In this document: positions 42,487 to 64,000 of the stretch, in pieces | Layout of the letters: each line of letters starts with the position of its first letter | Numbering within the stretch: the first letter of the stretch is position 1 | NCBI RefSeq assembly: GCF_008704795.1 | Contig: NZ_CP023690.1 | Span: forward strand, 8,380,501-8,444,500 | DNA from: Streptomyces spectabilis | GTDB taxonomy: Bacteria > Actinomycetota > Actinomycetes > Streptomycetales > Streptomycetaceae | Direction: 5' to 3' | DNA length: 64,000 nt | Notes under the pieces: model-generated | The model's database searches: none | What the model was told of the DNA's origin: nothing | The model's input: only the letters and a program-made list of their open reading frames with translations | Program-made: the position numbers and the translations under genes

Positions 42487-42585
42487 TAGTACCAAAGGAT
42501 CGAAGGTCGTCGCCGGGTGGCATGCGCGGGCTTTCTGGCTGAGGATCGCGAAGGGAGTCCTGTGAAAGTCAGAGGAGACACGGCC

Positions 42586-43434: not shown

Positions 43435-43435
43435 C

Positions 43436-44320
43436 ATGGAAGGGCCGACGATCGGGGGAGTCATCGCCTACCCGGTCACACCGTTCCGCCGGTCCGACGG
43501 CGCCGTGGACACGGACGCGCTGCGCGCTCTGATCGACCGGCTGGTCGCATCCGGCGTGCACGGCATCGCACCGCTGGGGTCCGCCGGTGAGAGTGCGTAC
43601 CTGTCCGATGCCGAGTGGTGCGAGGTGGCGGAGGCGTCCTTGGAGGCCGTGGCGCGGCGGGTGCCGACCGTGGTGGGCATCTCCGACCTCACCACGGAGG
43701 GCGCCGTCCGGCGTGCCCGGTTCGCCGAGCGAGCCGGTGCGGACGTCGTGATGGTGTTGCCGGTCTCGTACTGGAAGCTCTCGGAGCGGGAGATCGTCAG
43801 CCACTACGGTGCGGTCGCCGAAGCGATCGCTCTTCCGGTCATGGTCTACAACAACCCGGCGACGAGCGGCATCGACATGTCGCCCGACCTGCTGATCCGG
43901 CTCGTCTCCGAGTTCGACAACGTGACTATGGTCAAGGAGAGTTCGGGCGACGTGCAGCGCATGCACCGGCTCCACGAGCTGACGGACGGGCGCCTGCCGT
44001 TCTTCAACGGGAGCAATCCGCTGGCGCTCGAAGCGTTCGCCGCGGGCGCGACGGGCTGGTGCACGGCCGCCCCGTGCCTGTTCCCCGCCGAGATCCTGGC
44101 GTTCTACGAGACCGTGCGCGCGGGCGATCTCGCGGACGCCCGCAAGCAGTTCTACCGGCTGCTGCCGCCGCTCCGCTTCCTCATGGCGAACGGGCTGCCC
44201 ACGGCGGTCAAGGCCGGGCTCGCCCTCCAGGGGCTCGACGTCGGGGAACCGCGCCGCCCTCTGCTCCCGCTGGAAGAGAGTCGCGTGCGGCAACTCGAGG
44301 CGCTGCTGGCGCAGTTGTGA
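43436..44320 (+). CDS. Dihydrodipicolinate synthase/N-acetylneuraminate lyase family protein
   Basis: A 294-aa Schiff-base aldolase. The Schiff-base Lys is in VTMVKESSGD (about residue 164), the catalytic Tyr is in VMVYNNPATSG, and GSAGESAYLSDAEW is the substrate-carboxylate loop. Family members add pyruvate to aldehydes or split such adducts. It is translationally close-coupled to the class II aldolase, implying consecutive steps on one carbon skeleton. It is unlikely to be the lysine-pathway DapA given the context. Confidence 0.88.
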   Translation: MEGPTIGGVIAYPVTPFRRSDGAVDTDALRALIDRLVASGVHGIAPLGSAGESAYLSDAEWCEVAEASLEAVARRVPTVVGISDLTTEGAVRRARFAERAGADVVMVLPVSYWKLSEREIVSHYGAVAEAIALPVMVYNNPATSGIDMSPDLLIRLVSEFDNVTMVKESSGDVQRMHRLHELTDGRLPFFNGSNPLALEAFAAGATGWCTAAPCLFPAEILAFYETVRAGDLADARKQFYRLLPPLRFLMANGLPTAVKAGLALQGLDVGEPRRPLLPLEESRVRQLEALLAQL

Positions 44321-44434
44321 ACAGCGGCCGGGCGGCCGCTATCCCGCCCCGTCCCCCTGCTCCGTACGGGAGCGCGGGGCTCACCCCGCAGACCGCGAAC
44401 TGAACTGCACCACCAGCGTGAGGAGAACCCATCC

Positions 44435-45790
44435 ATGCTGCGTCCCATTCACTCCGACCGTCGTGAGGAAGTACTGCCGGTCAACCCGCTGTACAGCGAT
44501 CTCGTGCCGCCCGGCGGAGTGCCGCGCTTCCAGCTGTCGGACGCGTCGATGACGGCCGATGCCGCGACCGCTCTGATCCGCGACGAGCTGATCCTGGAGT
44601 CCCACGCCCGGCTCAACCTGGCGACGTACTGCACCACATGGATGGAACCGCAGGCCAGAGAGCTGATCGCGGAGTGCCTCGACCGGAACCTGATGGACCA
44701 CGACCAGTACCCGCAGACCGCGGACATCGAGACGCGCTGCGTCAACATCCTCACCAACCTGTGGAACGACCCGGACGGTGTCGGTGTCGGCTGCTCGACG
44801 GCCGGCTCCAGTGAGGCGGCGATGCTCGCGGGCCTGGCGATGAAGTTCGCCTGGCGCAACCGCCGCCGGGCCGCCGGGCTGGCCACCGACCGGCCCAACC
44901 TGGTCATGTCCACCGCGGTGCACACCTGCTGGCCGAAGTTCTGCCGCTACTGGGACGTCGAACCGCGCTACGTCCCCATCAGCGAGCCCGGCTACAACAT
45001 CGACCCGGCCGCGGTCGCCGCGGCCTGCGACGAGAACACGATCGGCGTGGTCGCGATCCTGGGTTCCAGCGCTCTGGGCACCTACGATCCCGTCGCCGAG
45101 ATCTCCGCCCAGTTGGACCGGCTGCAAGCCGATCAGGGCCTCGACGTCCCGATCCATGTGGACGCCGCCGTCGGCGGTTTCGTCACCCCGTTCCTGGATC
45201 CCGAGCGGGTCTGGGACTTCCGGTTGCCGCGCGTACGGTCGATCAACGCCTCTGGCCACAAATTCGGGCTGGTCTACCCGGGAGTCGGCTGGATCGTCTG
45301 GGAGGACCGTGCCGACCTCGCCGAGGAACTGGTCTTCGACTGTGAACTGCTCGGCGGTTGCCTGCCGACCTTCACGCTCAACTTCTCCCGCTCCGGCGCC
45401 CCGGTGGTCGCGCAGTACTACAACTTCCTGCGGCTGGGCTTCGAGGGGTACCGCGCGGTGCAGCACACCTCGCGCGAGGTGGCCCGCTACCTGGCGAAGG
45501 AGATCGCGCTGGTCCCCGGTCTTGACGTGATCACCGATGGCACTGATCTGCCGGTGGTCGGCATCCGGATCCGGCCGGGAGAGGACGCGATGACGGTCTT
45601 CGACATCCACGATCGCATGCGCCGTCACGGCTGGCACATCCCCGCCTACAACCTGCCCCCCGACCTGGAACACATCGGAGTACTGCGGGTCGTGGTCCGC
45701 CACGGGTTCAGTCAAGATATCGCTGAGCACCTCGTGCGAGACCTGCGTACGGAGGTCGCCGCCCTGCTCGACGGAGACCCGCAGCCGTGA
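44435..45790 (+). CDS. Glutamate-decarboxylase-like PLP enzyme
   Basis: A 451-aa group II PLP decarboxylase closest in pattern to GadB. It shows ARLNLATYCTTWMEPQA, DHDQYPQTADIETRCVN, CSTAGSSEAAMLAG, HVDAAVGGF, and the PLP-binding Lys in INASGHKFGLVYPG. It would convert glutamate, or a substituted glutamate made by the aldolase-type neighbours, to the amine. The ATG at 44435 has GAGGAG nine nt upstream. The gap of 114 nt after the lyase gene may hold a second promoter. Confidence 0.88.
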   Translation: MLRPIHSDRREEVLPVNPLYSDLVPPGGVPRFQLSDASMTADAATALIRDELILESHARLNLATYCTTWMEPQARELIAECLDRNLMDHDQYPQTADIETRCVNILTNLWNDPDGVGVGCSTAGSSEAAMLAGLAMKFAWRNRRRAAGLATDRPNLVMSTAVHTCWPKFCRYWDVEPRYVPISEPGYNIDPAAVAAACDENTIGVVAILGSSALGTYDPVAEISAQLDRLQADQGLDVPIHVDAAVGGFVTPFLDPERVWDFRLPRVRSINASGHKFGLVYPGVGWIVWEDRADLAEELVFDCELLGGCLPTFTLNFSRSGAPVVAQYYNFLRLGFEGYRAVQHTSREVARYLAKEIALVPGLDVITDGTDLPVVGIRIRPGEDAMTVFDIHDRMRRHGWHIPAYNLPPDLEHIGVLRVVVRHGFSQDIAEHLVRDLRTEVAALLDGDPQP

Positions 45791-51212: not shown

Positions 51213-51242
51213 TTGACGTCGGTCGTCGACGATACGTAGGCT
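51213..51242 (+). promoter_or_regulatory. HrdB-type promoter of the exporter/NRPS operon
   Basis: TTGACG (51213-51218), 18 nt, TAGGCT (51237-51242): a good match to the Streptomyces principal-sigma consensus. It lies in the 434-nt gap upstream of the MFS gene, with predicted start about 51249, giving a leader of about 130 nt. I see no gene in the rest of the gap (50946-51212). Confidence 0.6.
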
Positions 51243-51249
51243 CCGGTCG

Positions 51250-51311
51250 TTCAAGCCAAAAGTTGTCCATCACAAGGCCGTTCGGGCCGCAAGTTGTCCG
51301 CCACACGAAAG
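51250..51311. repeat. Two 31-nt tandem repeats at the transcription start
   Basis: 51250-51280 and 51281-51311 share 21 of 31 positions, including an identical 9-nt AAGTTGTCC and a following CACA. The period of about three helical turns, directly downstream of the predicted start point, suggests a two-site operator. Confidence 0.6.
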
Positions 51312-51379
51312 GCTTTCGTGTCAGTGCGAGCAGTCACCCCACAGGGTTCCTTTCCCATAGCGGCCAGGACCGGCCATTG

Positions 51380-52672
51380 ATGGGGTCTCGAGAACGGTTC
51401 GCGGTATTTCGGGACCGTGATTTCTCCGTCTTCTTCGTCGGCTACGTCACGTCCAACCTCGGTACGTCGATGGCATCCGTGGCGCTGGCGTTCGCGGTCC
51501 TGCACAACGACGGATCACCCACCGACCTGAGTCTGGTCCTCGCCGCGCGCATCGTGCCGATGGTGCTGCTGCTCCTCGGCGGCGGGGTGCTCGGCGACCG
51601 GCTGCCGCGGCGCCTGGTGATGCTGGTGGCCGACTCCGTGCGCGCCCTCAGCCAGGGTGCCCTGGCCGTGCTGTTGCTGATCGGGCCCGTGCCCCTGTGG
51701 GTAGTGCTCACCCTCGCCGCCTGCGGTGGGGTCGGCGAGGCCCTGTTCCGTCCCTCGTTCGACGGTATGGTGCCGCAACTCGCCCCGAAGGACCGGCTGC
51801 CGGAGGCCAACTCCCTGCTGGGGATGGCCCAGTCGGCCGCGAGCGTGGGCGGTCCGGCGCTCGCGGGCGTCCTGGTCGCGGTCACCTCGGCGGCCACGGT
51901 TCTGCTGGTGGACGCGCTGAGCTATGTGGTGAGCGTCGGCGCCCTGCTCATGCTGCGGGCCGGCAACCAGGCTCCCGACTCCGGCGGCAGCTCCATGGTG
52001 GCCGAACTGCGGGCCGGATGGCGGGCCTTCTCGGCCCACACGTGGTTGTGGACCGTCACCCTCCAGTTCACTCTGTTCAACCTGCTGGTGTGGGCGCCCT
52101 ACTTGGTCCTCGGCCCCGTCTCGGCGGGCCGCAGCTACGGCGGGTCCGAGGCCTGGGGGCTGATCGTCGGCACCTTCGGCGGCGGCTCGCTGCTCGGCGG
52201 TCTGCTGCTGCTCGGCCGACGGCCCTCGCGCCCGCTGGTCGTGACCACACTGATCACCTTCCTGTGGGCGGCTCCCTCAGCGGCCCTCGCCGTCCGCGCC
52301 CCGCTGTGGACGGTGTGCGCCGCGGCCCTCGCGGCCGGCGTGTCGAGCGCGGTGTTCAACAGCCTCTGGATGACGACGATCCAGCAGCACGTGCCCGCGG
52401 ACAGCCTGTCCCGGGTGATGTCGTACGTGACCTTCGGAGCCTATTCCGTCGGGCCGGTCGGGCTCGCCCTCGCCGGTCCGCTGGCGGAACAGACCAGCAT
52501 CGGCCTGATCCTGGCCATCGGCGTCGGCTGGCAGGTCCTTGCTAATTCCGTGGTGCTCATGCTGCCGGCCGTACGCAATCTGCACGCGCCGAATGCGGAT
52601 CAGAACGAGAGCGCCGCGGAGAACTCCGCAGAATCAGCCGAGTCCAGTACATCTGACGTACCGGCGACCTGA
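51380..52672 (+). CDS. MFS exporter (EntS-like)
   Basis: A 430-aa major facilitator with about 10-12 membrane helices. The DRDFSVFFVGYVTSNLGTSM start, the GVLGDRLPRR loop between helices 2 and 3, and NSLLGMAQSAASVGGPALAG are typical of EntS/tetracycline-type drug exporters. A polar Ser/Glu-rich tail closes the protein. It is the first gene of the NRPS operon, 47 nt before the first A-PCP gene, so it most likely exports the product and gives self-protection. ATG 51380 is the start, with a weak ribosome site. Confidence 0.88.
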   Translation: MGSRERFAVFRDRDFSVFFVGYVTSNLGTSMASVALAFAVLHNDGSPTDLSLVLAARIVPMVLLLLGGGVLGDRLPRRLVMLVADSVRALSQGALAVLLLIGPVPLWVVLTLAACGGVGEALFRPSFDGMVPQLAPKDRLPEANSLLGMAQSAASVGGPALAGVLVAVTSAATVLLVDALSYVVSVGALLMLRAGNQAPDSGGSSMVAELRAGWRAFSAHTWLWTVTLQFTLFNLLVWAPYLVLGPVSAGRSYGGSEAWGLIVGTFGGGSLLGGLLLLGRRPSRPLVVTTLITFLWAAPSAALAVRAPLWTVCAAALAAGVSSAVFNSLWMTTIQQHVPADSLSRVMSYVTFGAYSVGPVGLALAGPLAEQTSIGLILAIGVGWQVLANSVVLMLPAVRNLHAPNADQNESAAENSAESAESSTSDVPAT

Positions 52673-52719
52673 CCCACCCCTTCTTCTCCTTTTCGCCGCA
52701 GTTCCCGAAACGGGGGTTC

Positions 52720-54543
52720 ATGGTGACTGTGCAGCGTTCGCATGCCCTTGCCCAAAAAGAGACGACAGTATGGGACCTGATATCTGAGACACGGGTGCGC
52801 CGTCCCGACGCGGTGGCCCTCACCGACGGAATGCGCCACTTCACTTATGCGGAATTGGTGGCGATCGCTGTCCGGGTCGCGCACGTCCTGCGCGACAAGG
52901 GGATCGGGCCGGGAGACACCGTGGCCCTGTGCTCCGTGCGGTCCACGGAGCAGGTCCTCGCTCTGGTCGGCACCCTCGCCTCCGGAGCCGCCGTGGCGCC
53001 CTTCGACGTGCGCCAGGCCGCCACGGCCGTACGCGAGAACGTGACGCGGCTCGCGCCCGCCGTCGTCCTCGCCGACGCCGACGGGGCGGAGCTCTTCCCC
53101 GACGCGCTGCGCCTGGACGGCCTGCTGGCCGTGGACGGGGCCCCGGATGTGGCGCTGCCGCCCGGTCCGGATCCGACGGACCTCGCGTACGTGCTGCACA
53201 CCTCCGGCTCCTCGGGGCGGCCCAAGCCGGTGCAGGTGCCGCACAGCGCCGTGCAGAACCGCTTCCTGTGGGGGCAGACCCGCTACCCCATCGGCCCTGA
53301 CGACACCGTCGCCCACTGGGGATCCCTGGTCTTCGACTGCTCGTTCTGGGTGGTGCTCGCGCCCCTGTGCTTCGGTGCCACCCTGCTCGTGGCCCCCGAC
53401 GGCCTTGAGGCCGAACCCGAAGAACTCGCGGCGCTGTTCGACCGCCACCGGGTCACCGTGATGCACTCCGTGCCCTCCCTGCTGCGCGAGTTCACCTCCG
53501 AAGGCGGAGCTGCGGCCCTGGCCTCGCTGCGCTATCTGCTGATCGCGGGCGAGCGGCTGCCCGGCGATCTGATCCGGCAGGTCCTGGATCTGACGGGTGC
53601 CCGGATCTTCAACCAGTACGGCCCCACCGAGACGTGCATCGACGTCCTCACCCACGAGATCGCCCCCGGGGACGAGGCACTGGACGCCATGCCCATCGGC
53701 CGCCCCCTCGACGGGGTGCACGCCGTGGTCGCCGACGAGGCCGGTGCCCCGGTCCCGGCCGGTACCGCCGGTGAGCTGCTGATCGGCGGTACCAGCGTGG
53801 CCTGGGGGTATGCGGGGGCCGCCGCCGCGACCGCCGAGCGCTTCGTGCCCGACCCGTACGGCGCCCCCGGCGGCCGGCTCTACCGGACCGGCGACCTCGT
53901 GCGCGAACGGCCCGACGGAGCACTGGAGTTCCTCGGCCGCGTGGATCACCAGGTCAAGATCCGCGGGGTCCGCGTGGAGCCCTCCGACGTCGAACACGCC
54001 CTGCTGCTGCACCCCGACGTCAGCCAGGCGGCCGTGGTCGCGGTGGAGGACCCCGAACACGGGGGCATCCGCCTCGCCGCGCACCTGGTGACGGGCGAGA
54101 AGACGCCCGACGACGCCGACCTGCGTGACTTCCTCGCCCAGCGCCTGGTCTCCGCCGCCCTCCCCGAAAGCTACCGGCGGCACCCGACCCTGCCCCGGCT
54201 GACCAGCGGAAAGATCGACCGCCTCACCCTGGCCCAGCAGGCCGCACACCACCCGCGAGACGCATCCGACGAGCCGCCGTACGACGCCCCGCGCACCAAG
54301 ACCGAGCAGACCATCGCCCAGATGTGGCAGGACCTGCTCGGGGTCGAACGCGTGGGACGCGACTCCGACTTCCACACCCTCGGCGGACAGTCGCTCCTGG
54401 CCATGCGGCTGATCGCCCGCGTCCGGGCCGGATTCCGTGTGCGGCTGCCCGCCCGCGCGGTCTTCCGCGCCCCGACCCTGGCGCGCTTCGCCGCCGTCGT
54501 GGACGAGGCCGTCGCCCAACGGGAAGGCGCCGGCGTTGGCTGA
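52720..54543 (+). CDS. Stand-alone A-PCP didomain NRPS protein 1
   Basis: A 607-aa protein with an adenylation domain (about residues 15-510) and a carrier domain (about 525-600). Motifs are HTSGSSGRPKP (A3), FDCSFW (A4), NQYGPTET (A5), GRLYRTGDLV (A7), GRVDHQVKIRG (A8), the TSGKIDR lysine (A10), and GGQSLLAMR with the phosphopantetheine Ser. By alignment with GrsA the pocket reads D-C-W-H-L-A-Q-I-D-K, closest to Glu/Gln codes, so an acidic or amide side chain is a weak prediction. It has no condensation domain, so it loads an amino acid for use in trans. It overlaps the next gene by 8 nt. Confidence 0.9.
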   Translation: MVTVQRSHALAQKETTVWDLISETRVRRPDAVALTDGMRHFTYAELVAIAVRVAHVLRDKGIGPGDTVALCSVRSTEQVLALVGTLASGAAVAPFDVRQAATAVRENVTRLAPAVVLADADGAELFPDALRLDGLLAVDGAPDVALPPGPDPTDLAYVLHTSGSSGRPKPVQVPHSAVQNRFLWGQTRYPIGPDDTVAHWGSLVFDCSFWVVLAPLCFGATLLVAPDGLEAEPEELAALFDRHRVTVMHSVPSLLREFTSEGGAAALASLRYLLIAGERLPGDLIRQVLDLTGARIFNQYGPTETCIDVLTHEIAPGDEALDAMPIGRPLDGVHAVVADEAGAPVPAGTAGELLIGGTSVAWGYAGAAAATAERFVPDPYGAPGGRLYRTGDLVRERPDGALEFLGRVDHQVKIRGVRVEPSDVEHALLLHPDVSQAAVVAVEDPEHGGIRLAAHLVTGEKTPDDADLRDFLAQRLVSAALPESYRRHPTLPRLTSGKIDRLTLAQQAAHHPRDASDEPPYDAPRTKTEQTIAQMWQDLLGVERVGRDSDFHTLGGQSLLAMRLIARVRAGFRVRLPARAVFRAPTLARFAAVVDEAVAQREGAGVG

Positions 54544-55297
54544 GCGACACGAACTCCGGATCCCGGCCCGCTACAACGGACCGCCCGACTCCGGGCACGG
54601 CGGATACGTCTCCGGCCGGTTCGCCGCCCTTGCGGCCCCCCACCAGGGCGCCACCGTCACCGTGACCCTGACCGAGCCCACCCCGCTGGACGAGCCGCTG
54701 ACCTTCACCCCCGGCCCGCGACGGTCCACGGTCACCCACGGCACCCGGCTGATCGCCACGGTGGCGCCCGGCCATGCCCCCGTCGATCCACCGCCCTCCG
54801 TGGACCCGGCCGCCGCGCGCGCTGCCGCGGCCCGCTTCGAGGGGCACGCGGGCCACCCGTTCCCCACCTGCTTCGCGTGCGGGCACAGCCGCACCGCCCA
54901 GGACGGCCTCGCTCTGGCCCCAGGACCGGTGGACGGCGTGCCGGACACCGTGGCCACCCCCTGGACTCCCGCCGCCGAGGGGATCGCCGACGGCTTCCCC
55001 GTCCCGGACGAGCTCGTGTGGAGCGCGCTCGACTGCCCCGGCGGCTGGGCCGACGACCCGCTGGCCCGCCCCCGTCTCCTGAGCCGGATGACTGCCGTCG
55101 TGCGGCGCGCGCCGCGAGCCGGTGAGCCGTGCGTGGTGGTGGCCAGGCGCGGCGCCGTCAGCGGGCGGCTGCTGCGGGTCGACAGCGCCCTGTACGACGC
55201 CACGGAGCAGCTCCTGGCGAGCGCGACCGCCACCTGGACGGCGCTCGTCGACTCCGGCACCCACGTCTCGAACTCGCCAGGAAAGGACACGGCATGA
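54536..55297 (+). CDS. Hotdog-fold thioesterase-like protein
   Basis: A 253-aa protein with two hotdog-like halves. It has an N-terminal GPPDSGHGGYVSGRFAAL helix region, then FPTCFACGHSRTAQDGLAL and VWSALDCPGGWAD, as in acyl-CoA thioesterase-like proteins of actinomycetes. Inserted between two A-PCP genes and fused by overlaps on both sides (TTG start at 54536 inside the previous gene; ATGA with the next), it may unload or proofread carrier-bound acyl groups. The TTG start is supported by GGAAGG 8 nt upstream. Function is an inference. Confidence 0.75.
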   Translation: MAERHELRIPARYNGPPDSGHGGYVSGRFAALAAPHQGATVTVTLTEPTPLDEPLTFTPGPRRSTVTHGTRLIATVAPGHAPVDPPPSVDPAAARAAAARFEGHAGHPFPTCFACGHSRTAQDGLALAPGPVDGVPDTVATPWTPAAEGIADGFPVPDELVWSALDCPGGWADDPLARPRLLSRMTAVVRRAPRAGEPCVVVARRGAVSGRLLRVDSALYDATEQLLASATATWTALVDSGTHVSNSPGKDTA

Positions 55298-57105
55298 ACC
55301 AGCACCAGGGCTCCGTGATCCGGGACGACAGCCGGGCCACCGTGCACGGCCAGTTCACGGCTCAGGCCCGTGCGACCCCGCAGGCCCCGGCCCTCAGTTG
55401 CGACGGCACCGTCCTGACGTACGCGCAGGTGGACGCCGCGGCCGACGCGGTGGCTGCCCGGCTGCGCGATCTCGGCGCCGGGCCGGGCCGCCCGGTGGGC
55501 GTCCGCATCGAACGCTCACCGCACCTGGTCATCGCCCTGCTCGCGGTGCTGAAGACCGGCGGCTTCTACGTGGCGCTGAACCCGGGCGAGCCCGCCGTAC
55601 GGTCGGCGTCGCTGCTGCGCGACTGCGGCGCCGGACTGCTGGTCACCCGTCCAGAAGTGCCCGCCGAACTGCTCGCCGAGGCCAAGCCGGTGTACCTGGA
55701 CTCCCTCCACCCCGCAGACGCGCCGGCCGGCACCGCCCCCGCGGCCGTCCCGCCGGGCGGCGACCAGGACGCGGCCTACCTTGCCTACACCTCCGGCACC
55801 ACCGGCGAGCCCAAAGGCGTGCTGGTGCCGCACGGTGCGGTACTGCGCCTGGTCCAGGACAGCGACGTGCTGCCGGTCGGGCCAGGGGACGTGGTGCTCC
55901 ACCTGGCACCGGCCGCGTTCGACGCCTCGACGCTGGAGCTGTGGGCGCCCCTCCTGAACGGTGCGCGCCTCGCGGTGTTCCCGGCCGGTGAGGTGACCCC
56001 GGAACGGCTCGCCGAGGTCGTCGAGGCGGAAGGGGTGACCGCGATGTGGCTCACCGCAGGCCTGTTCCACCTGGTCGCGGAGAGGCCCGACCCGCGCCTC
56101 GCGGGAGTGCGCAGGCTGCTCGCGGGCGGCGACGTCCTCTCGCCCCGGCACGTCGACGCGATGCTCGCGGCCTTCCCCGGACTGACGCTGGTGAATGGCT
56201 ACGGCCCGACGGAGAACACCACGTTCACGTGCTGCCACGCCATGGCGGAACCGGTCTCCGCCCACCAGGTGCCCATCGGGCGCCCGATCCCCGGCACCCA
56301 GGCACATCTGCTCGACGAACGGCTGCGCCCCGTGGCCGACGGAACCGTGGGGGAGCTGTACGCGGGCGGCAGGGGTGTCGCCCACGGCTACTGGGGCCTT
56401 CCGGTGGCCACCGCCGAGCGGTTCGTCCCCGACCCGTTCTCGGGTACGCCGGGCGCCCGCCTGTACCGCACCGGCGACCTGGCCCTGCGGCGGCCGGACG
56501 GGGTCCTGGAATTCCACGGGCGCGTGGACGACCAGGTGAAGATCCGCGGATTCAGAGTGGAACCCGGCGAGGTGGAGGCGGCGCTGCGCGAGCTGCCCGG
56601 CGTCGGGGACAGCGCGGTCGTCGCCCGTACCGGGCCCACCGGAGAGCGCGCTCTGGTCGCGTATGTGACGGGGAAGCAGGAGCAGCCGCTGCAACTTCCC
56701 GGCCTGCGGCGCGCCCTGGCCGAGAAGCTGCCCGCCCATCTGGTGCCCGGCTCCTTCGTCCAGCTGGAGAGCCTGCCGCTGGGCAGCACCGGCAAGGTCG
56801 ACCGGCGCGCCCTGGCGGCACGCGGGGAACGCGCCCGGCCCGAGACGGACGTACCGCTGCGCCTGCCCGAGAACGAACTGGAGCAGTGGCTCGCGCAGCT
56901 CTGGTGCGACCTGCTTGGGATCGACCAGGTCGGTGTGGACGACGACTTCTTCGAAGTGGGCGGACACTCGCTCGTCGCCGCCGCGATCACCGGGGAGATC
57001 GGTCAGGTCCAGGGGGTGTTCGTCACCGCCAGGTCCTTCTACGAGAACCCCACGGTGGCCGAACTCGCCGAGCTGGTCGCCGAGTTGAGGGAGAGCGTCC
57101 GATGA
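55294..57105 (+). CDS. Stand-alone A-PCP didomain NRPS protein 2 (Val-like code)
   Basis: A 603-aa adenylation-carrier didomain. Motifs are YTSGTTGEPKG, FDASTLELW, NGYGPTEN, RLYRTGDLA, GRVDDQVKIRGFRVEPGEVE, STGKVDR, and the carrier VGGHSLVAAA. The pocket residues read D-A-L-W-L-G-G-T-F-K, a well-known valine-type code. The P450 gene immediately downstream overlaps it by 4 nt. The likely scheme is valine loaded here and hydroxylated on the carrier before transfer. Confidence 0.92.
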   Translation: MNQHQGSVIRDDSRATVHGQFTAQARATPQAPALSCDGTVLTYAQVDAAADAVAARLRDLGAGPGRPVGVRIERSPHLVIALLAVLKTGGFYVALNPGEPAVRSASLLRDCGAGLLVTRPEVPAELLAEAKPVYLDSLHPADAPAGTAPAAVPPGGDQDAAYLAYTSGTTGEPKGVLVPHGAVLRLVQDSDVLPVGPGDVVLHLAPAAFDASTLELWAPLLNGARLAVFPAGEVTPERLAEVVEAEGVTAMWLTAGLFHLVAERPDPRLAGVRRLLAGGDVLSPRHVDAMLAAFPGLTLVNGYGPTENTTFTCCHAMAEPVSAHQVPIGRPIPGTQAHLLDERLRPVADGTVGELYAGGRGVAHGYWGLPVATAERFVPDPFSGTPGARLYRTGDLALRRPDGVLEFHGRVDDQVKIRGFRVEPGEVEAALRELPGVGDSAVVARTGPTGERALVAYVTGKQEQPLQLPGLRRALAEKLPAHLVPGSFVQLESLPLGSTGKVDRRALAARGERARPETDVPLRLPENELEQWLAQLWCDLLGIDQVGVDDDFFEVGGHSLVAAAITGEIGQVQGVFVTARSFYENPTVAELAELVAELRESVR

Positions 57106-58394
57106 GGATCGGCAGCCCCGCGGCGACTGCGGACATCGCGCTCGACACCATCGACCTCGCGGACCCCGAGCTGTACGCCTCGGGCGACCCGCACACCCTG
57201 TGGCACGCGCTGCGCGAGCGGGAACCGGTCCACCGCCAGACCCTGCCCGACGGCCGCTCCTTCTGGTCGGTGACCTCCTATCGCGACGTCAACGACGTGC
57301 TGCGCGACCACACCCGGTACACCTCACAGCGCGGCACGCTGCTGTCCATCCTGGGCTCCTCCGACCCGGCCGGCGGCCTGATGATGGCGGCCAGTGACCC
57401 GCCCGTGCACACCGCGCTGCGCGAGCCGATGGGCAAGGCGCTGTCGGCCCGCGCCCTCGCGCACTGGGAGCCACGCATCCGCGAGGTGGTGCTGCGGCTG
57501 CTCGCGCCGCTCGCCGAAGGACCGCTGGACCTGGCGCAGGCCGGCACGGCCTTCCCGATGGCCTTCACCGGGGCGCTGATGGGCCTGCCGGAGGACGACT
57601 GGGCCCGGCTCGCCCACCTGACCACGATGGCCGTCGCCCCGGAGGACCCGGCGTTCGAGGCGGGCGGGGGACACACGACGCTGCTCTCCGCCCACCACGA
57701 GCTGTTCGAGTACTTCGCCCGGCGGGTGCGCACGGTCTCCGCCGCGCCCGGCGACGACCTCACCGGATTCCTGCTCCGGATGAGGCCCGACGGCCGCCCG
57801 CTGCGCCAGGACGAGTTGGTGTACAACTGCTACAGCCTGCTCCTGGGTGCGAACGTCACCACCCCGCACGCCCTGGCGGCGACCGTGCTTGCCCTCATGG
57901 AGCACCCTGATCAGTACCGTCGCCTCCTGGCCGAACCGGCCCTGGTGACCAGCGCCGTGGAGGAGGGGCTGCGCTGGTCCTCGCCGGCCAACCACTTCAT
58001 GCGGTACGCCGTCAAGGACACCGAGCAGAACGGTGTGCGGATCGCTCGCGGCGACGCCGTGGTCGCCTGGCTGGGCTCGGCGAACCGGGACGCCGCTGTC
58101 TTCCCCGACCCGTACCGCTTCGCCGTCGACCGCAGTCCGAACCGGCACGTGGCCTTCGGCTTCGGACCGCACTACTGCATCGGCGCGCCGCTGGCCCGCA
58201 TCGCGCTGCGCGTGATGTTCCAGGAGATCGTGCGGCTCGTGGCCGAGTTCCGGCCCGCGGGGCCGGTCCGCCATCTGAAGTCCAACTTCGTCGCGGGCAT
58301 CAGCTCCCTTCCCGTCACCGCCGCCCTGCGCGACGGCGCGGCCGAAGCCCTGGCTGCCCACGCGCCCCTGCCGCGCCCGGAGGCCGTCGCATGA
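57102..58394 (+). CDS. Cytochrome P450, probably acting on PCP-bound amino acid (1)
   Basis: A 430-aa P450. The heme Cys motif is FGFGPHYCIGAPLAR, ExxR is EEGLRW, and the I helix LLLGANVTTPHALA keeps the Thr. Genes of this type placed next to A-PCP didomains generally hydroxylate the tethered aminoacyl group, often at the beta carbon (NovI/NikQ logic). The translational coupling on both sides (ATGA with the A-PCP gene and with the thioesterase gene) supports this. Ferredoxin and reductase must come from elsewhere. Confidence 0.9.
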   Translation: MRIGSPAATADIALDTIDLADPELYASGDPHTLWHALREREPVHRQTLPDGRSFWSVTSYRDVNDVLRDHTRYTSQRGTLLSILGSSDPAGGLMMAASDPPVHTALREPMGKALSARALAHWEPRIREVVLRLLAPLAEGPLDLAQAGTAFPMAFTGALMGLPEDDWARLAHLTTMAVAPEDPAFEAGGGHTTLLSAHHELFEYFARRVRTVSAAPGDDLTGFLLRMRPDGRPLRQDELVYNCYSLLLGANVTTPHALAATVLALMEHPDQYRRLLAEPALVTSAVEEGLRWSSPANHFMRYAVKDTEQNGVRIARGDAVVAWLGSANRDAAVFPDPYRFAVDRSPNRHVAFGFGPHYCIGAPLARIALRVMFQEIVRLVAEFRPAGPVRHLKSNFVAGISSLPVTAALRDGAAEALAAHAPLPRPEAVA

Positions 58395-59209
58395 CCGCGC
58401 AGACACCACAGAAGCCGCAGACACCGCAGAAGCCATACACACCGCAGAGACCGCCGAAGAAGAAGCGATGGCTGCTGCGCACCCCGGCGGCGGACGCCTC
58501 CGCCCGGCTGTTCTGCTTCCCGTACTCGGGGACCGGCGCCTCGATGTACAACAAGTGGCCGGACCGGGTAGGACCGGCCGAGGTGTGCCGCATCCAGTTG
58601 CCGGGTCGCGAGAACCGGGTGCGGGAAGAGCACTTCGGCACCTATGAGGCGCTTGCCGCCGACCTGGCGCCGGCCCTGCTGCCCCACCTCGACCGGCCGT
58701 TCGGCTTCTTCGGCCACTGCGGCGGCGCCCTCGCGGCCTTCGCGACGGCGCACCGCCTTGCCGAGCTCGGCATGCCCGTCCCCGACGTGCTCTTCATGTC
58801 CTCCCAGGTAGCCCCGCACCAGGGCCCCTACGGCCGCTACCTCACGATGGACGAGACGGGGCTGCGCGGCGAGCTGGAGCGCCTCACCAGGGTCATGGGC
58901 TCGGAGCCGGTGCCGGACCTGATCGACCTGGGCCTGGGCGTCATGAACGCGGACCTCGCGGCGAACCGCGCCTACCGCACCCCCGAGCCGGTCGTGCTGC
59001 CCACGCGCATCCGCCCCCTCGGCTGGCGCGACGACCAGGAGGTCGCACCGGAGCGCATGACCGGCTGGGAGGAGTGCGCCCCCGCGGGGCGGTGCGCGCG
59101 CACGGTGCTGCCGGGAGACCACCACGCCTTCCTGCGCGCCCCCGACCCGCTGGTCGACGTGCTCGCCGCGGACCTTGGCGACGCGGTCGCCGCGAGGGCG
59201 GCCCAGTGA
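58391..59209 (+). CDS. Type II thioesterase with Cys nucleophile
   Basis: A 272-aa alpha/beta hydrolase of the NRPS/PKS external thioesterase family, with LFCFPYSGTGASMY, RIQLPGRENR, and a C-terminal GDHHAFL His. The nucleophile elbow reads FGHCGGALA: Cys110 replaces the usual Ser of GHSxG. The N terminus has an unusual extension of about 25 residues rich in TPQKP repeats and Lys/Arg. Standard members clear misprimed carriers; a Cys version may instead favour transfer or cyclisation. It is overlapped by 4 nt with the genes on both sides. Confidence 0.9.
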   Translation: MTAQTPQKPQTPQKPYTPQRPPKKKRWLLRTPAADASARLFCFPYSGTGASMYNKWPDRVGPAEVCRIQLPGRENRVREEHFGTYEALAADLAPALLPHLDRPFGFFGHCGGALAAFATAHRLAELGMPVPDVLFMSSQVAPHQGPYGRYLTMDETGLRGELERLTRVMGSEPVPDLIDLGLGVMNADLAANRAYRTPEPVVLPTRIRPLGWRDDQEVAPERMTGWEECAPAGRCARTVLPGDHHAFLRAPDPLVDVLAADLGDAVAARAAQ

Positions 59210-60453
59210 ACACCGAGCCGACCGGAAGAGAGGAACCCGTGGCATCCGACCCCTATGTGTCCGGCTCGCTCAAGGAGACCGGCGACCCCGACCCGTACGC
59301 CAACTACGCCTGGCTGCGTGAGCACGCACCGGTCAGCGAGGTCTACACCCCCCACCGGGAGGGCACCACCTGGCTGGTCACCACCTACGACCTCGCCCGC
59401 GCCTGCCTGACCGACCCGCGCCTGAGCAACGACGACCGCAACTCGGCGGGCGCGCAGGGTGCCTTCGGCAGCGGTGAGTGGGATCCCGCACGGGGGCTGC
59501 TCGACCTGGACCGGCCCGAACACGCCCGGCTGCGGCGCCTGGTGGCGGGTGCGTTCAGCGCGGGCGCCGTCGAGCGGATGCGGGACATGATGGTCCGCAT
59601 CACCGATGAGGCCCTCGACACCCTGGCGGGCCTGGAGAGCTGCGACCTCGTCGAGCACTTCTCGCTGCCGGTGCCGGTGGCGATCATCCACGAGGTGCTC
59701 GGGATCCCGCCGGAGCAGCGCGAGTCCCCGGCGCACTGCCTCGACCTCTTCTACCACACGGGCCTGACCGACCCGCTGGACGTGGACAAGCTGGGCGAAC
59801 TCCTTGAGTACACGGCCAAACTGGCGGCGTACAAGCGCACCCATCCCGGGCCCGATGTCGGCACCCACCTGGTCCGGGGCCTGGAGACGGGCGAGCTGCG
59901 CGACGACAACGAACTCGCGGCGATGATCCTGTCGGTGCTCGGCGCCGGACACGTGACGACCGTTCAGTTCCTGGGCACGGCCGTCTACCGGCTGCTGCAG
60001 CACCCGGACCAACTGGCGGCGATCCGCGAAGGAAGCATCACCTGGCAGTCGGCCGTGAACGAACTGCTGCGCTACGACGCCCCGGTCCAGTCCACGGTGT
60101 ACCGCTACGCCAAGGAGGACCTGGACCTCGGCGGGGTGCGCATCGGCAAGGGGGACGCGCTCCTTGTGTCGCTCGCCGCGGCCAACCGTGATCCGGCCCG
60201 GTTCCCCGACCCGGACACCTTCCGTGCCGACCGCGGCGGCTCGGGCCACCTCGGCTTCGGCCACGGCGCCCACTTGTGCCTGGGCGCCCATCTCGCCCGC
60301 CTGGAGGGCGAGATCGCCCTCGACATCCTCTTCCGCCGCCTGGACGGGATCGAACTGGCCGTGCCCTTCGACGAGGTGGTGTGGACGTATGGGCCCATGC
60401 TCCGTGGACCGCGTGCGCTGCCGGTGCTGCTGCCCACCCCCGCGGCTCGCTGA
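59206..60453 (+). CDS. Cytochrome P450, probably acting on PCP-bound amino acid (2)
   Basis: A 415-aa P450. The heme motif is FGHGAHLCLGAHLAR, ExxR is NELLRY, and the I helix LGAGHVTTVQF is complete. GTG 59206 overlaps the thioesterase stop (GTGA). An internal GTG at 59239 with GAGAGGA upstream is an alternative that would shorten the protein by 11 residues. It lies 47 nt before the third A-PCP gene, so it probably oxidises the amino acid loaded there or a later peptide intermediate. Confidence 0.9.
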   Translation: MNTEPTGREEPVASDPYVSGSLKETGDPDPYANYAWLREHAPVSEVYTPHREGTTWLVTTYDLARACLTDPRLSNDDRNSAGAQGAFGSGEWDPARGLLDLDRPEHARLRRLVAGAFSAGAVERMRDMMVRITDEALDTLAGLESCDLVEHFSLPVPVAIIHEVLGIPPEQRESPAHCLDLFYHTGLTDPLDVDKLGELLEYTAKLAAYKRTHPGPDVGTHLVRGLETGELRDDNELAAMILSVLGAGHVTTVQFLGTAVYRLLQHPDQLAAIREGSITWQSAVNELLRYDAPVQSTVYRYAKEDLDLGGVRIGKGDALLVSLAAANRDPARFPDPDTFRADRGGSGHLGFGHGAHLCLGAHLARLEGEIALDILFRRLDGIELAVPFDEVVWTYGPMLRGPRALPVLLPTPAAR

Positions 60454-60500
60454 GCTCGCGACGCCCCCGACAACAACGACACGAAGATCTGGAGTGCGCC

Positions 60501-62309
60501 ATGGCACAAGAGCAGCAGGCGGCCCCGAGCCGGTCGGCCCGCACGGTCCTGGAGGGCTTCGACGCCTGGGCCGCCAAGGCCCCCGACGAGCCCGCCGTGA
60601 TCTCGGACGGCACCGCGCTGAGCTACCGGCAACTGGACGAGGAGGCCGAGGCCCTCGCCCGTGACCTGCGGGCGCTGGGGTGCGGGCCCGAGACCGTGGT
60701 CGGGCTGTGCGTCACGCGCGGCACCGGCCTGGCCGTCGCGGTCCTGGGCGTGGTCAAGGCGGGCGCGGCGTACCTGCCGCTGGACCCCGCCCACCCCGCG
60801 GCGCGGTCCCGGACGGTCCTTGCCGACGCCGGGGCGCGCCTCGTGGTGACGGACCGGTCGGTGTCGGCCGGTCTGGATGCCGAAGGCTGGGGCAGGACGC
60901 CGGTGTACGAGCTGGACGGTGAGCGCCCGGCGCCGACCGTCGCGGACCCGGACGCCTGCCCCGCCGGCGAGGCCGACCAGTTGCTGTACGTCATCTACAC
61001 CTCGGGCTCCACCGGGCGGCCCAAGGGCATCGCCATGCAGAGCGGGCCGCAGATCACGCTGCTCGACTGGTGCCGGGAGCACTACGCCGAGCGCCCGGTC
61101 GCCCTGCAGTACTTCCCCGTGACCGCCGACGTGGCCTTCCTCGAGCTCATGTCCACGTGGTGGCTCGGCGGTTGTGCGGTGGTCGCCACCGAACCGGAGC
61201 GCTACGACATCGAGGCCCTGGCCGCCCTGATCGCCCGGCACGCCGTGAGCAAGGTCCTGCTGCCGGTGGTCGCGCTCGACGAGCTCGCCCGGCACAGCAG
61301 GAGCGCACCCGACCAGGTGGCCACCCTCCGTGAACTGATCACCACCGGTGACCGGCAGGCGATCACTCCGGCCATCCGTGACCTGTGCGACCAGCACCCC
61401 GAGATGTTCCTGGACAACCACTACGGTTCCACCGAGGTGAACGTGGTCACCGCGCCGCGCCTGACGGCACCGGCCGCCGAGTGGCCCGACCACCCGCTGA
61501 CGGGACGGCCCATGTCCGGCGCGCGGATCTACGTGCTCGACGCGAACCTCTCGCCGGTACCGCCGAACGTCCAGGGCGAGATCTACGTGGGTGGCGGACC
61601 GCCCGCCCGCGGCTACGCGGGGCGCCCGGGCCTGACGGCCGCCGCGTTCCTGCCCGACCCCTACGCGGCGGAGCCCGGCGCGCGCATGTACCGCACCGGT
61701 GACCTGGGCCGGTGGCGGCCCGGGGGAGTCCTGGAGTACCTGGGCCGGGTCGACTTCCAGCTCAAGCTGCACGGCTACCGCATCGAACCGGGTGAGATCG
61801 AGTCGTTGCTGCGCGAGCGCGCGGACGTGGAGCGGGCCGTCGTGCTGCGGATCGGCGAGGGCCAGGACGCCTACCTGGCGGCGTATCTGATCGCCGACGG
61901 CGAACCGCCGGCCCCGAGCGAGCTGCGCGAGTACCTCGGCCTTCGGCTGCCCGCGCCCATGGTGCCCAGCACCTACGTCTTCCTGCCGGAGTTCCCGCTC
62001 ACCGACACCGGAAAGGTGGACCGCAAGGCGCTGCCGCTGCCGGACGGCGGCGGGGCGCAGTGGGTCGCGCCGCGCGACGAGACCGAGCGGGCGGCCGCGG
62101 AGGTGCTCGCCCAGGTCCTCGGCCGGGACCGGATCGGCGTCACCGACGACTTCTTCCGCCTGGGCGGGCACTCGCTGTTGGTCACCCAGGTGGTGCACCG
62201 GCTGCGCGCCGCGCTCGGGGTGCAGCTCCCGATGCGGGCGGTCTTCGAAGGTCCGACCGCCGCGGCACTGGCCAAGGAAGCGCGCCGGCTGCGCGAGGAG
62301 CGCGGATGA
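60501..62309 (+). CDS. Stand-alone A-PCP didomain NRPS protein 3 (Pro-like code)
   Basis: A 602-aa adenylation-carrier didomain. It has YTSGSTGRPKG, a divergent A4 (FPVTADVAFLEL), A5 NHYGSTEV with Ser in place of the usual Pro, MYRTGDLG, GRVDFQLKLHGYRIEPGE, DTGKVDRK, and the carrier LGGHSLLVTQ. The pocket reads D-V-L-L-I-T-H-V-V-K, close to the proline code D-V-Q-L-I-A-H-V-V-K, so proline or a cyclic imino acid is predicted. ATG 60501 follows CTGGAG by 6 nt. It is coupled to the large NRPS gene by ATGA. Confidence 0.9.
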   Translation: MAQEQQAAPSRSARTVLEGFDAWAAKAPDEPAVISDGTALSYRQLDEEAEALARDLRALGCGPETVVGLCVTRGTGLAVAVLGVVKAGAAYLPLDPAHPAARSRTVLADAGARLVVTDRSVSAGLDAEGWGRTPVYELDGERPAPTVADPDACPAGEADQLLYVIYTSGSTGRPKGIAMQSGPQITLLDWCREHYAERPVALQYFPVTADVAFLELMSTWWLGGCAVVATEPERYDIEALAALIARHAVSKVLLPVVALDELARHSRSAPDQVATLRELITTGDRQAITPAIRDLCDQHPEMFLDNHYGSTEVNVVTAPRLTAPAAEWPDHPLTGRPMSGARIYVLDANLSPVPPNVQGEIYVGGGPPARGYAGRPGLTAAAFLPDPYAAEPGARMYRTGDLGRWRPGGVLEYLGRVDFQLKLHGYRIEPGEIESLLRERADVERAVVLRIGEGQDAYLAAYLIADGEPPAPSELREYLGLRLPAPMVPSTYVFLPEFPLTDTGKVDRKALPLPDGGGAQWVAPRDETERAAAEVLAQVLGRDRIGVTDDFFRLGGHSLLVTQVVHRLRAALGVQLPMRAVFEGPTAAALAKEARRLREERG

Positions 62310-64000
62310 AGGAGGGGACGGCGGCGGGGGAGCCGACCGGTCGGCCCGAGCTGTCCTTCGCCCAGGAGCGGCTGTGGTTCCTCGACCAGCTCTCACCGGG
62401 GGAGTCCGGCTACCTCACGCCGTTCAGCCGCCGTCTTGACGGCCCGGTGGACGCGGACCTGTTGGAGCGCGCGCTGCGGGCGGTCGCGGAGCGCCATCCG
62501 GTGCTGCGGTCACGGATCGACGATGCTTCGGGGACACCGGTTCCCGTGGTCGAGGCGGCCGCGACGGTCCGCCTGGAGCGCGTCGACCTGAGCGGTGCGC
62601 CGGACCCGGAGCGCGCCGCCGAGGCCGCCGTGGCGACGATGCTGAACACGCCCATGGACCTGACGGCGGCGCCGTGGCTGCGGGCCGCGCTGTTCACACT
62701 GGGCGAGGGCAGCGCCCTCTTCCACGTCCAGGTGCACCACATCGCCTTCGACGGGATCTCCCGGGGCCTGTTCGAGCGGGAGCTGTCGGCGCAGTACCGG
62801 GCCCTGGCGGGGGGCCGCCCGGCACTGGAGCCCCCGCCAGGGCAGGACTACGCCGCCCACGCGGCCCGGCAGCGGGCGGCGCTCGGACCCGCCGAGCGCG
62901 AGGAGTTGCTGGCCCAGTGGCGCACCGCCCTGGACGGCGCGCCGCACGTGCTCGAGCTGCCCTCGGACCGCCCGCGCCCGGCCAGGCCGGGCCCGCGGGC
63001 GGGGCGGGTGGACTTCGTGGTCCCCGAAGAGGTCACCGCCGCCCTGCACCGCGTCGCGCAAGCGCGACGGACGACCCTGTTCTGTGTCGGCCTGGCCGCC
63101 TACCAGCATCTGCTCGGCCGGTACGCGGATGCCCGGGACGTGCTGGTGGGGGTGCCGTTCGCGGGCCGCGAGGACCCGGAGACGGAGCAGATCATCGGGT
63201 TCTTCACGCACTCCGTGCCGCTGCGCGGGGAGTTGGCCGGGTCACCGTCGCTCGACGCACTGACCCGGCAGGCGCGGGACCGGGTGCTCGAGGCGATGGA
63301 CCTCCAGGAACTGCCGCTTGAGCAGCTCGTGGACGGGCTCGGCGTGACCCGCGAGGCCAACCGCAATCCGCTGTTCCAGCACTGGTTCGACCTGGCGGAC
63401 CCGCAGTGGGACCGGCCTGCGCTGATCCTGCCCGGCGTTCGGATCCGGCCGGTCCCGGTCACCGAGACCACCACCCGCTTCGACACCGAACTGCATCTGC
63501 GTCCCGCGGGAGCGGGTCTGGCGGGACGGCTCCTGTACTCGGCGGAGCTGTTCGACGAGGAGACGGCCGCGGGCCTTGCCGGACACTATGCCGCGCTGCT
63601 CGCCGCGGCGGCCGCGGAGCCGGGGCGACCCCTCGACTCGATCCCGCTCACCGGGGCGGACGAGAGCGCGCGACTGATCGACCTGGGCACCGGGCCTGCC
63701 GTGCGGCGCGGCCCGGCGACGGTGGACGCGTACGTGGAGCGCACGGTGGCCCGCGTTCCGGACGAGGTGGCCGTCCGCTCCGGCGAACGGCGGCTGACCT
63801 ACCGTCAGCTCGACGAGCGGTCACGGCGGATCGCCCGGGCGCTGCGGGAGCACGGGGCCGGGCCCGAGCAGGTGGTCGCGGTCTGTCTGCCGCGCGGGCC
63901 CGAGCTGGTCTGCGCCCTGCTGGGCGTCGTGCGGTCGGGGGCGGCCTACGTGCCGGTGGATCCGGAGCTTCCGGCCGAGCGGATCGCGTACCTGCTGCGC
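62306..64000 (+). CDS. NRPS, condensation-adenylation start (truncated by window edge)
   Basis: The first 565 residues of a modular NRPS. The condensation domain (about 12-450) has LSFAQERLWFLDQL, the active motif HHIAFDG (H144, H145, D149), VGVPFAGRE and NPLFQHWF. The adenylation domain begins at about residue 480 (LTYRQLDERSRRIARAL, SGAAYVPVDPELPAERIAYLL) and is cut before the specificity residues. No carrier domain precedes the C domain in cis, so the donor must be a separate carrier such as one of the upstream A-PCP proteins, or a fatty acyl group. The start ATG overlaps the previous stop. Confidence 0.95.
   Translation, partial: MKEGTAAGEPTGRPELSFAQERLWFLDQLSPGESGYLTPFSRRLDGPVDADLLERALRAVAERHPVLRSRIDDASGTPVPVVEAAATVRLERVDLSGAPDPERAAEAAVATMLNTPMDLTAAPWLRAALFTLGEGSALFHVQVHHIAFDGISRGLFERELSAQYRALAGGRPALEPPPGQDYAAHAARQRAALGPAEREELLAQWRTALDGAPHVLELPSDRPRPARPGPRAGRVDFVVPEEVTAALHRVAQARRTTLFCVGLAAYQHLLGRYADARDVLVGVPFAGREDPETEQIIGFFTHSVPLRGELAGSPSLDALTRQARDRVLEAMDLQELPLEQLVDGLGVTREANRNPLFQHWFDLADPQWDRPALILPGVRIRPVPVTETTTRFDTELHLRPAGAGLAGRLLYSAELFDEETAAGLAGHYAALLAAAAAEPGRPLDSIPLTGADESARLIDLGTGPAVRRGPATVDAYVERTVARVPDEVAVRSGERRLTYRQLDERSRRIARALREHGAGPEQVVAVCLPRGPELVCALLGVVRSGAAYVPVDPELPAERIAYLLR

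Follow-up and report, generated by a model that had tools for sequence, protein, structure and literature searches.

A putative dissociated non-ribosomal peptide synthetase operon with a recurrent hotdog–P450 cassette in Streptomyces spectabilis

Results

The window analysed here is a stretch of 64,000 nt from the 9.8 Mb, single-contig genome of Streptomyces spectabilis (G000:C1:8380501-8444500), and its right-hand end carries an operon of non-ribosomal peptide synthetase (NRPS) genes that is intact and, as far as could be checked, uncharacterised (Table 1). The operon encodes three stand-alone didomains of adenylation (A) domain and peptidyl carrier protein (PCP), two cytochromes P450, a hotdog-fold protein (HotDog) and a thioesterase (TE)-like protein with a cysteine nucleophile (TEII1, or Cys-TE). 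A dissociated NRPS, with a valine-oxidation and shuttle cassette that recurs elsewhere, describes it better than three suppliers feeding an assembly line on its right. Coordinates are those of the window, and 'extended' marks the same numbering carried on to the right of 64000, where the genome was read to 129700.

A first-pass annotation of this DNA had proposed a single rightward operon of nine gene types with two 47-nt gaps and otherwise overlapping genes. Both gaps were located, between the major facilitator superfamily (MFS) gene and A-PCP1 (52673-52719) and between P450b and A-PCP3 (60454-60500), and at every other junction within the window the genes overlap, by 4 or 8 nt. Pfam calls agree with the proposed gene order, including the three separate A-PCP proteins and the two P450s, and HotDog was assigned by its predicted fold. 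The last gene, described as C-A NRPS, does contain condensation (C) and A domains but is actually C-A-PCP and ends beyond the window. The stop of the MFS gene at 52672 is out of frame with 51213, and its best start is an ATG; HotDog probably starts at a TTG. All PCPs have the GGxS site and all A domains the A10 lysine, HHxxxDG is intact in C-A-PCP and PCP-C, and the haem cysteine motif is present in both window P450s. The operon is no chance assembly: apart from the altered motif of the free C domain, the PCP, A10 and C motifs are present, and S. huiliensis and S. cacaoi have the same gene order.

Table 1. Genes of the operon and of its continuation to the right of the window.
Feature	Coordinates	Strand	Basis and remarks
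MFS transporter (probable exporter)	51380..52672 (ATG 51380)	+	PF05977 (E 8e-39), PF07690
A-PCP1, code DCWHLAQIDK (Ser-like)	52720..54543	+	PF00501, PF13193, PF00550; code and motifs
HotDog, TesB-like double-hotdog	54536..55297 (probably TTG 54536)	+	AlphaFold2 and structure search; cassette member
A-PCP2, code DALWLGGTFK (Val-type)	55294..57105	+	Pfam; seven homologues elsewhere with similar codes; cassette member
P450a	57102..58394	+	PF00067 (match on longer frame); cassette member
TEII1 (Cys-TE), motif FGHCGG	58391..59209	+	PF00975; cassette member
P450b	59206..60453	+	PF00067; paired with A-PCP3
A-PCP3, code DVLLITHVVK (Pro-like)	60501..62309	+	Pfam, code; 47-nt gap upstream
C-A-PCP, code DAWFLGHVVK (Leu-like)	62306..64000, to extended 65527	+	Pfam on L011:12060-15527; HHIAFDG
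MbtH gene	extended 65615-65818	-	PF03621
Free C domain	extended ~GTG 65977 to 67461 (L011:15977-17461)		Motif HHIAFDR
TEII2, Ser-type thioesterase	extended 67645-68409		Ser nucleophile kept
PCP-C didomain	extended 68399-70009
ATP-grasp ligase	extended 70002-71372
Insertion sequence (IS)/transposase DDE fragment	extended 71399-71797 (L012:1499-1897)		Directly after ATP-grasp

A scan of genome contigs recovered three operon loci from 27 stretches, namely in Streptomyces sp. NRRL B-1347 (L045; 94-99 % protein identity), S. huiliensis SCA2-4 (L046; 79-92 %, with shared gene order) and S. cacaoi NBRC 12748 (L047; 50-69 %, with shared order and the MFS gene inverted). Genome G602 (L083/L084) holds a fourth other copy at 93-99 %, and here, as in NRRL B-1347 and S. 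huiliensis, the MFS gene is kept. The ATP-grasp gene follows PCP-C in every copy, and the window and NRRL B-1347 sequences part directly past it, where the IS fragment lies.

The four A-domain codes are identical in all five operon copies (window, L045, L046, L047 and L083). By the usual residue numbering and reference codes they read as Ser-like (A-PCP1), Val-type (A-PCP2), Pro-like (A-PCP3) and Leu-like (C-A-PCP), which agrees with the Val-like and Pro-like codes noticed earlier. For comparison, a serine code is given as DVWHFSLV in the available part of PMC10888640. None of the four carries the published piperazate code (DVF...Y).

In the genus, P450b matched 8 of 392 genomes at E ≤ 1e-100 and was near-identical only in the window genome and G602; at E ≤ 1e-125 there was one matching genome in each of two overlapping sets (1 of 394 and 1 of 100), in both cases the window genome. 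When 20 kb around each of the six weaker genus matches was searched, a full-length A-PCP3 homologue was found in G582 only. There the P450b–A-PCP3 pair recurs at 48 % and 50 % in an NRPS locus (L085:12230-17122). A further A-PCP (DMQYIAQQAK) accompanies it, and the adjoining modular NRPS has the codes DIQFHAHVIK, DVYLVTQVVK and DAWFLGHVVK; DVYLVTQVVK is common to the stand-alone A-PCP of the pair and one NRPS module of this locus.

HotDog, A-PCP2, P450a and Cys-TE form a cassette that recurs outside the operon. HotDog matches occurred in 43 of 297 family genomes, the window genome included, and 18 HotDog loci were compared; seven middle-rank loci were passed over, two stretches were shorter than 20 kb, and the counts given here are those of the compared set. 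A P450a homologue (48-69 %) is present at 8 of the 18 loci, a Val-type A-PCP also at seven of these eight and a Cys-TE at five. All eight are among the ten best HotDogs by E-value, and none is among the eight weakest. The Val-type A-PCP lies within about 10 kb at seven loci, directly adjoining P450a at six and about 5 kb off on the other strand at one, and all seven codes resemble that for valine: DALWVGGTFK, DALWLGGTFK (twice), DALLLGGTYK, DAWWLGGTFK and DAFWVGGTFK (twice). Since order, orientation and surrounding genes vary between loci, the cassette looks mobile. Two loci (L130:9711-15295 and L134:4762-10480) combine HotDog, Val-type A-PCP and P450a with an M20 peptidase and a neighbouring LuxR regulator. 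The stretches read there show no Cys-TE, and no C domain of the operon type was detected in the surrounding 10 kb or so; here HotDog may simply release the oxidised amino acid, which is perhaps what the pathway makes.

The operon contains a stand-alone A-PCP adjacent to a P450, the arrangement of a PCP-tethered oxidation unit, and the frequent adjacency at the other loci fits the earlier proposal that an A-PCP beside a P450 tethers an amino acid for oxidation. It has this in common with the skyllamycin P450sky, OxyD, NikQ and PlyR units: a stand-alone A-PCP, in the operon of Val type, directly followed by a P450. In the PDB, 4l0e and 3mgx, presumably P450sky and OxyD, are matches 3 and 4 of 445 for P450a. 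The operon differs from these units in its accompanying HotDog and Cys-TE, and in that the best PDB matches of P450a (1 and 2) are of CYP125 type. P450a probably oxidises the amino acid held on A-PCP2.

The first-pass annotation had also counted two thioesterases. HotDog, which has no Pfam or NCBIfam match, is predicted to have a double-hotdog, TesB-like fold (AlphaFold2 pLDDT 91.7, pTM 0.89; structure search). The fold would permit a dehydratase, and a thioesterase is tentatively preferred because the histidine beside the N-terminal GG differs from the family consensus. By sequence, TEII1 is a RifR-like type II thioesterase, with FGHCGG in place of GHSxG. In the protein searches the roughly 8000 candidates with most shared words were scored, and the best 120 were listed of 243, 867 and 471 matches. 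Among the matches listed, a protein from S. spectabilis is 97 % identical to HotDog and one from Streptomyces sp. AN091965 is 95 % identical to Cys-TE; S. californicus and Kitasatospora sp. NPDC101157 also have HotDog orthologues. The cysteine occupies the nucleophile position in five of five operon copies, five of five other cassette copies and all 120 listed homologues (of 471), and an alignment of 56 sequences (the window protein and 55 of the 120 listed) shows no variation at C110, D215 and H244. Judging by the motifs, these residues would form a complete triad whose nucleophile is able to hold an aminoacyl group. The second of the two supposed thioesterases, with its cysteine nucleophile, is therefore better regarded as a probable shuttle, and a Ser-type enzyme (TEII2), the third of the set, lies outside the window. 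Among the matches listed is a homologue from Streptomyces sp. SANK 60404, a strain linked to vazabitide and s56-p1. Vazabitide/azinomycin was considered through this homologue and set aside, as the available part of the review PMC9570651 allows no gene-level comparison.

SyrC and CmaE use a cysteine nucleophile. They are resembled by the aminoacyl shuttle CysB, as described in the available part of PMC7966384, and LgnA is a TE-like shuttle with Ser77 that takes threonine off an A-T didomain and passes it to a different T domain, according to the accessible text of PMC8748450. In all four systems, as far as these two sources extend, a TE- or acyltransferase-type protein stands beside a separate A-T didomain, like TEII1, and LgnA differs in using Ser77 where TEII1 has Cys110. 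TEII1 is probably an aminoacyl shuttle.

To the right of the operon's A domains, the earlier reading had expected an assembly line receiving the building blocks. Here only the free C domain, the Ser-type TE, PCP-C and the ATP-grasp ligase follow, and then the IS fragment. No modular assembly line was found within 48 kb in the window genome; of 97 condensation-domain matches in the whole genome, the next lies at 8502224 (extended 121724), about 50 kb past the ATP-grasp gene. With no modular line to the right, the probable role of the A-PCPs is to serve as loading stations in a dissociated NRPS. The operon totals four A and three C domains, counts that suggest a tetrapeptide made from discrete parts and a ligase. 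PCP-C lacks an A domain, and its PCP must receive its load in trans. Free domains and a PCP lacking its A domain are common to this operon and to dissociated NRPSs such as that for pacidamycin, a likeness of layout, and the P450s, HotDog and the cysteine protein are extra in the operon. PacP and PacH of pacidamycin are mentioned in the available part of PMC8748450. Past the shared block, NRPS genes in the same direction, which may or may not belong to this pathway, start about 6 kb beyond the ATP-grasp gene in S. huiliensis (L054; codes DPMISGNVLK, DAFLIGGSFK and DVENVGAITK at L054:61-8308), and no operon-type NRPS gene was found in the 14 kb past it in S. cacaoi. The expectation of an assembly line directly to the right is not supported in the window genome.

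The S. huiliensis and S. cacaoi copies carry, between the free C domain and TEII2, an ornithine/lysine N-monooxygenase of KtzI type (PF13434) and a piperazate synthase family protein of KtzT type (PF04299 in S. huiliensis; the S. cacaoi protein is 65 % identical). At the same site the window, NRRL B-1347 and G602 have a gap of 183-185 nt, and the pair is absent from the operon. For the scar test, the 44 nt before TEII2 were left out and the gap was aligned to S. huiliensis KtzT (nt 507-636 of 645). The window gap scored 56, against a mean of 39.9 (standard deviation 4.8, maximum 55) for 300 dinucleotide shuffles; the NRRL B-1347 gap scored 62 (maximum 59, 300 dinucleotide shuffles) and that of G602 63 (maximum 58, 300 mononucleotide shuffles). 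Because all three gaps align in the same register and lie in the expected place, a KtzT scar is probable; taken alone, the scar evidence is moderate.

A single KtzT match at E ≤ 1e-6 was found elsewhere in the window genome (G000:C1:7895673-7896317, or L072:11673-12317), divergent from a KtzI homologue and followed by ArgJ (L072:11673-16365, or G000:C1:7895673-7900365), with a DDE transposase gene nearby (L072:8228-9688). The best PDB matches of the two are piperazate synthase 9ebk (E 1e-98) and KtzI 4tlx (E 5e-167). The distance from the end of the pair to the operon is 534 kb, and the nearest condensation-domain matches lie 478 kb to its left and 545 kb to its right, the latter being the operon. 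At only 57 % identity to S. huiliensis KtzT, it is not simply the operon copy moved.

Canonical piperazate A domains lie at 7.38-7.42 Mb of the window genome (DVFSVGPYAK and, twice, DVFTVAAYAK); the first of these codes is the one given for KtzH-A1 in the portions available of PMC3943440 and PMC5031334. A further two A domains, at 9.14 Mb, share 66 % identity with the DVFSVGPYAK domain, and the first seven positions of their codes read DVFSVAA and DVFSVGP. The A domains at 7.4 and 9.14 Mb may be the main clients of the distant pair. The best identities to a canonical piperazate A domain were 50 % in S. cacaoi and 49 % in S. huiliensis, where the canonical domains in the window genome match one another at 60-66 %; the DNA pattern FDVxxFE had no match in S. 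huiliensis and two in S. cacaoi, and no A domain with the published code was found in either draft genome. S. huiliensis has a second KtzI/KtzT pair elsewhere, and the one KtzT match of S. cacaoi lies within its operon.

The kutzneride, himastatin, polyoxypeptin, aurantimycin and diperamycin clusters share KtzI/KtzT-type genes with the S. huiliensis and S. cacaoi copies and differ from the operon, which has neither the published code nor a large modular NRPS; the window operon lacks the gene pair as well. Piperazate genes outside the cluster have precedents in polyoxypeptin and aurantimycin (PMC10888640 and PMC3943440, available parts). Of the known piperazate P450s, HmtN is described as acting after peptide formation and PlyM is assumed to do so (PMC3943440, same portion).

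Judging by similar coordinates, the window probably falls between the streptovaricin and actinospectacin clusters, where the available part of the antiSMASH table for S. spectabilis KCTC9218T and AN091965 shows no known NRPS (PMC9396898). Neither the operon nor the four-gene cassette was found named in the accessible portions of the open-licence literature, and we do not claim its absence from print. An azaserine-type hydrazinoacetate pathway, raised by a HotDog homologue in S. fragilis and by the ATP-grasp gene in azs, was rejected since the gene sets differ, as far as the available part of PMC10445470 goes. PMC10609185 offered no decisive evidence. Elsewhere in the window, class II aldolase, DHDPS-family and pyridoxal-dependent decarboxylase-family genes lie in a row on the forward strand (42517-45790).

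Discussion

The anatomy of the operon, its synteny, the recurrence of the cassette, the cysteine nucleophile and the insertion in two relatives versus the gap in the others are directly observed, and from them we infer every reaction, the order of condensation and any use of piperazate. The best explanation overall, to which we give a probability of about 0.5, is a dissociated NRPS for a small peptide. The four A-PCP units would each load their own amino acid: a Ser-like, a Val-type, a cyclic Pro-like and a Leu-like residue. P450a would oxidise the Val-type residue while A-PCP2 carries it, the probable result being 3-hydroxyvaline, and P450b would likewise oxidise the cyclic residue carried by A-PCP3. 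Cys-TE would then take the oxidised aminoacyl group from A-PCP2 to another carrier, most likely the PCP of PCP-C that lacks an A domain, and HotDog would hydrolyse stray or finished aminoacyl groups. Three bonds would be formed by the C domains of C-A-PCP, the free C domain and PCP-C, and the ATP-grasp ligase would add the last unit. The S. huiliensis and S. cacaoi operons would additionally supply piperazate through their KtzI/KtzT-type genes; in the window lineage the pair was probably deleted, and the pair 534 kb away could replace it.

Several observations weigh against this explanation. A cysteine is no proof of shuttling, given that LgnA, a Ser-type TE, shuttles too, and in the stretches read Cys-TE was not seen at three of the eight other loci with HotDog and P450a. 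The two best PDB matches of P450a point to CYP125-type enzymes. According to the available part of PMC10888640, aurantimycin and polyoxypeptin synthesis uses a Val-type code for 3-hydroxyleucine, so the substrate of A-PCP2 may be another branched residue. The free C domain has an arginine in its motif, HHIAFDR replacing HHxxxDG, and this is found as HHIAFDR in S. huiliensis and HHILFDR in S. cacaoi; S. huiliensis also has its further NRPS genes past the ATP-grasp gene. As to the scar, among 998 slices taken from the same region 10 score at least as high as the window gap, 56 (maximum 61), the alignment of the gap with S. cacaoi KtzT or the genome's own distant KtzT does not rise above shuffles, and the three gaps are not independent. 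Finally, with no operon code equal to the published piperazate code, the link to piperazate rests on neighbourhood in two relatives, and it is conceivable that two S. cacaoi A domains, which have a DVFS start but Ile and Val where the published codes carry Ser/Ala/Pro and Tyr, are themselves piperazate users.

The strongest competing explanation is that the peptide contains proline and not piperazate, so that A-PCP3 and P450b make hydroxyproline and this peptide does not require the KtzI/KtzT genes that S. huiliensis and S. cacaoi carry. We regard this as a serious contender of somewhat less than even probability. It accords with the Pro-like code of A-PCP3, with the recurrence of the P450b–A-PCP3 pair on a contig without a KtzT match (L085), with the absence of the gene pair from three operons (window, NRRL B-1347 and G602) and with the second pair in S. 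huiliensis. However, KtzI and KtzT stand at the same place in two distant copies, with a probable scar in a third lineage, and no A domain with the published code was found in S. cacaoi, though two share its DVFS start. As the sole KtzT match of that species lies in the operon, piperazate, if made, is perhaps used by the operon, with entry by way of the ATP-grasp ligase or of an A domain that is non-canonical, and A-PCP3 is the favoured candidate because of its Pro-like pocket and its own P450.

Less likely than not is the idea that the KtzI/KtzT pair at 7.896 Mb is unrelated to the operon and serves the canonical piperazate NRPSs, the operon running without piperazate or being dead. The piperazate-code A domains at 7.38-7.42 Mb, the DVFSVAA and DVFSVGP domains at 9.14 Mb and the single KtzT match in the genome are what such a division would predict. 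However, service to canonical NRPSs does not exclude service to the operon, and Wei et al. (2022), to go by the title, reportedly treat free piperazate as a precursor. A dead operon is unlikely because reading frames and codes are intact. The fullest form of the piperazate proposal, in which A-PCP3 loads piperazate with a Pro-like code unlike the known piperazate codes, its P450 oxidises the tethered residue, a mobile valine-oxidation cassette works alongside with its cysteine protein shuttling the oxidised residue between carriers, and the operon's own piperazate genes were lost in the S. spectabilis lineage with a distant pair, shared with other piperazate NRPSs, taking over, is improbable.

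Unlikely too is off-line supply, in which the A-PCP/P450 units would release their oxidised amino acids by hydrolysis, as free compounds for a modular NRPS at some other place in the genome: the genome does have other condensation domains, the available parts of PMC3943440 and PMC10888640 propose off-line A/PCP/TE systems with re-activation for polyoxypeptin and diperamycin, a stand-alone A-PCP and a module share one code in L085, and NRPS genes follow in S. huiliensis, but the operon has its own C-A-PCP, free C domain and PCP-C, together in all four other copies, the shared block has no modular NRPS, and none of its four differing codes looks like a re-activating copy of another.

In summary, the preferred explanation remains the dissociated NRPS for a small peptide. 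HotDog, the Val-type A-PCP, the P450 and the cysteine protein together offer a testable unit for oxidation and transfer in trans, and their presence at several loci suggests that this unit may be portable for engineering. The operon is also a case in which the genes for a precursor seem to have been lost, and its genome has such a pair far away. A possible new route for piperazate into a peptide would extend the reach of genome mining based on a single family of A-domain codes.

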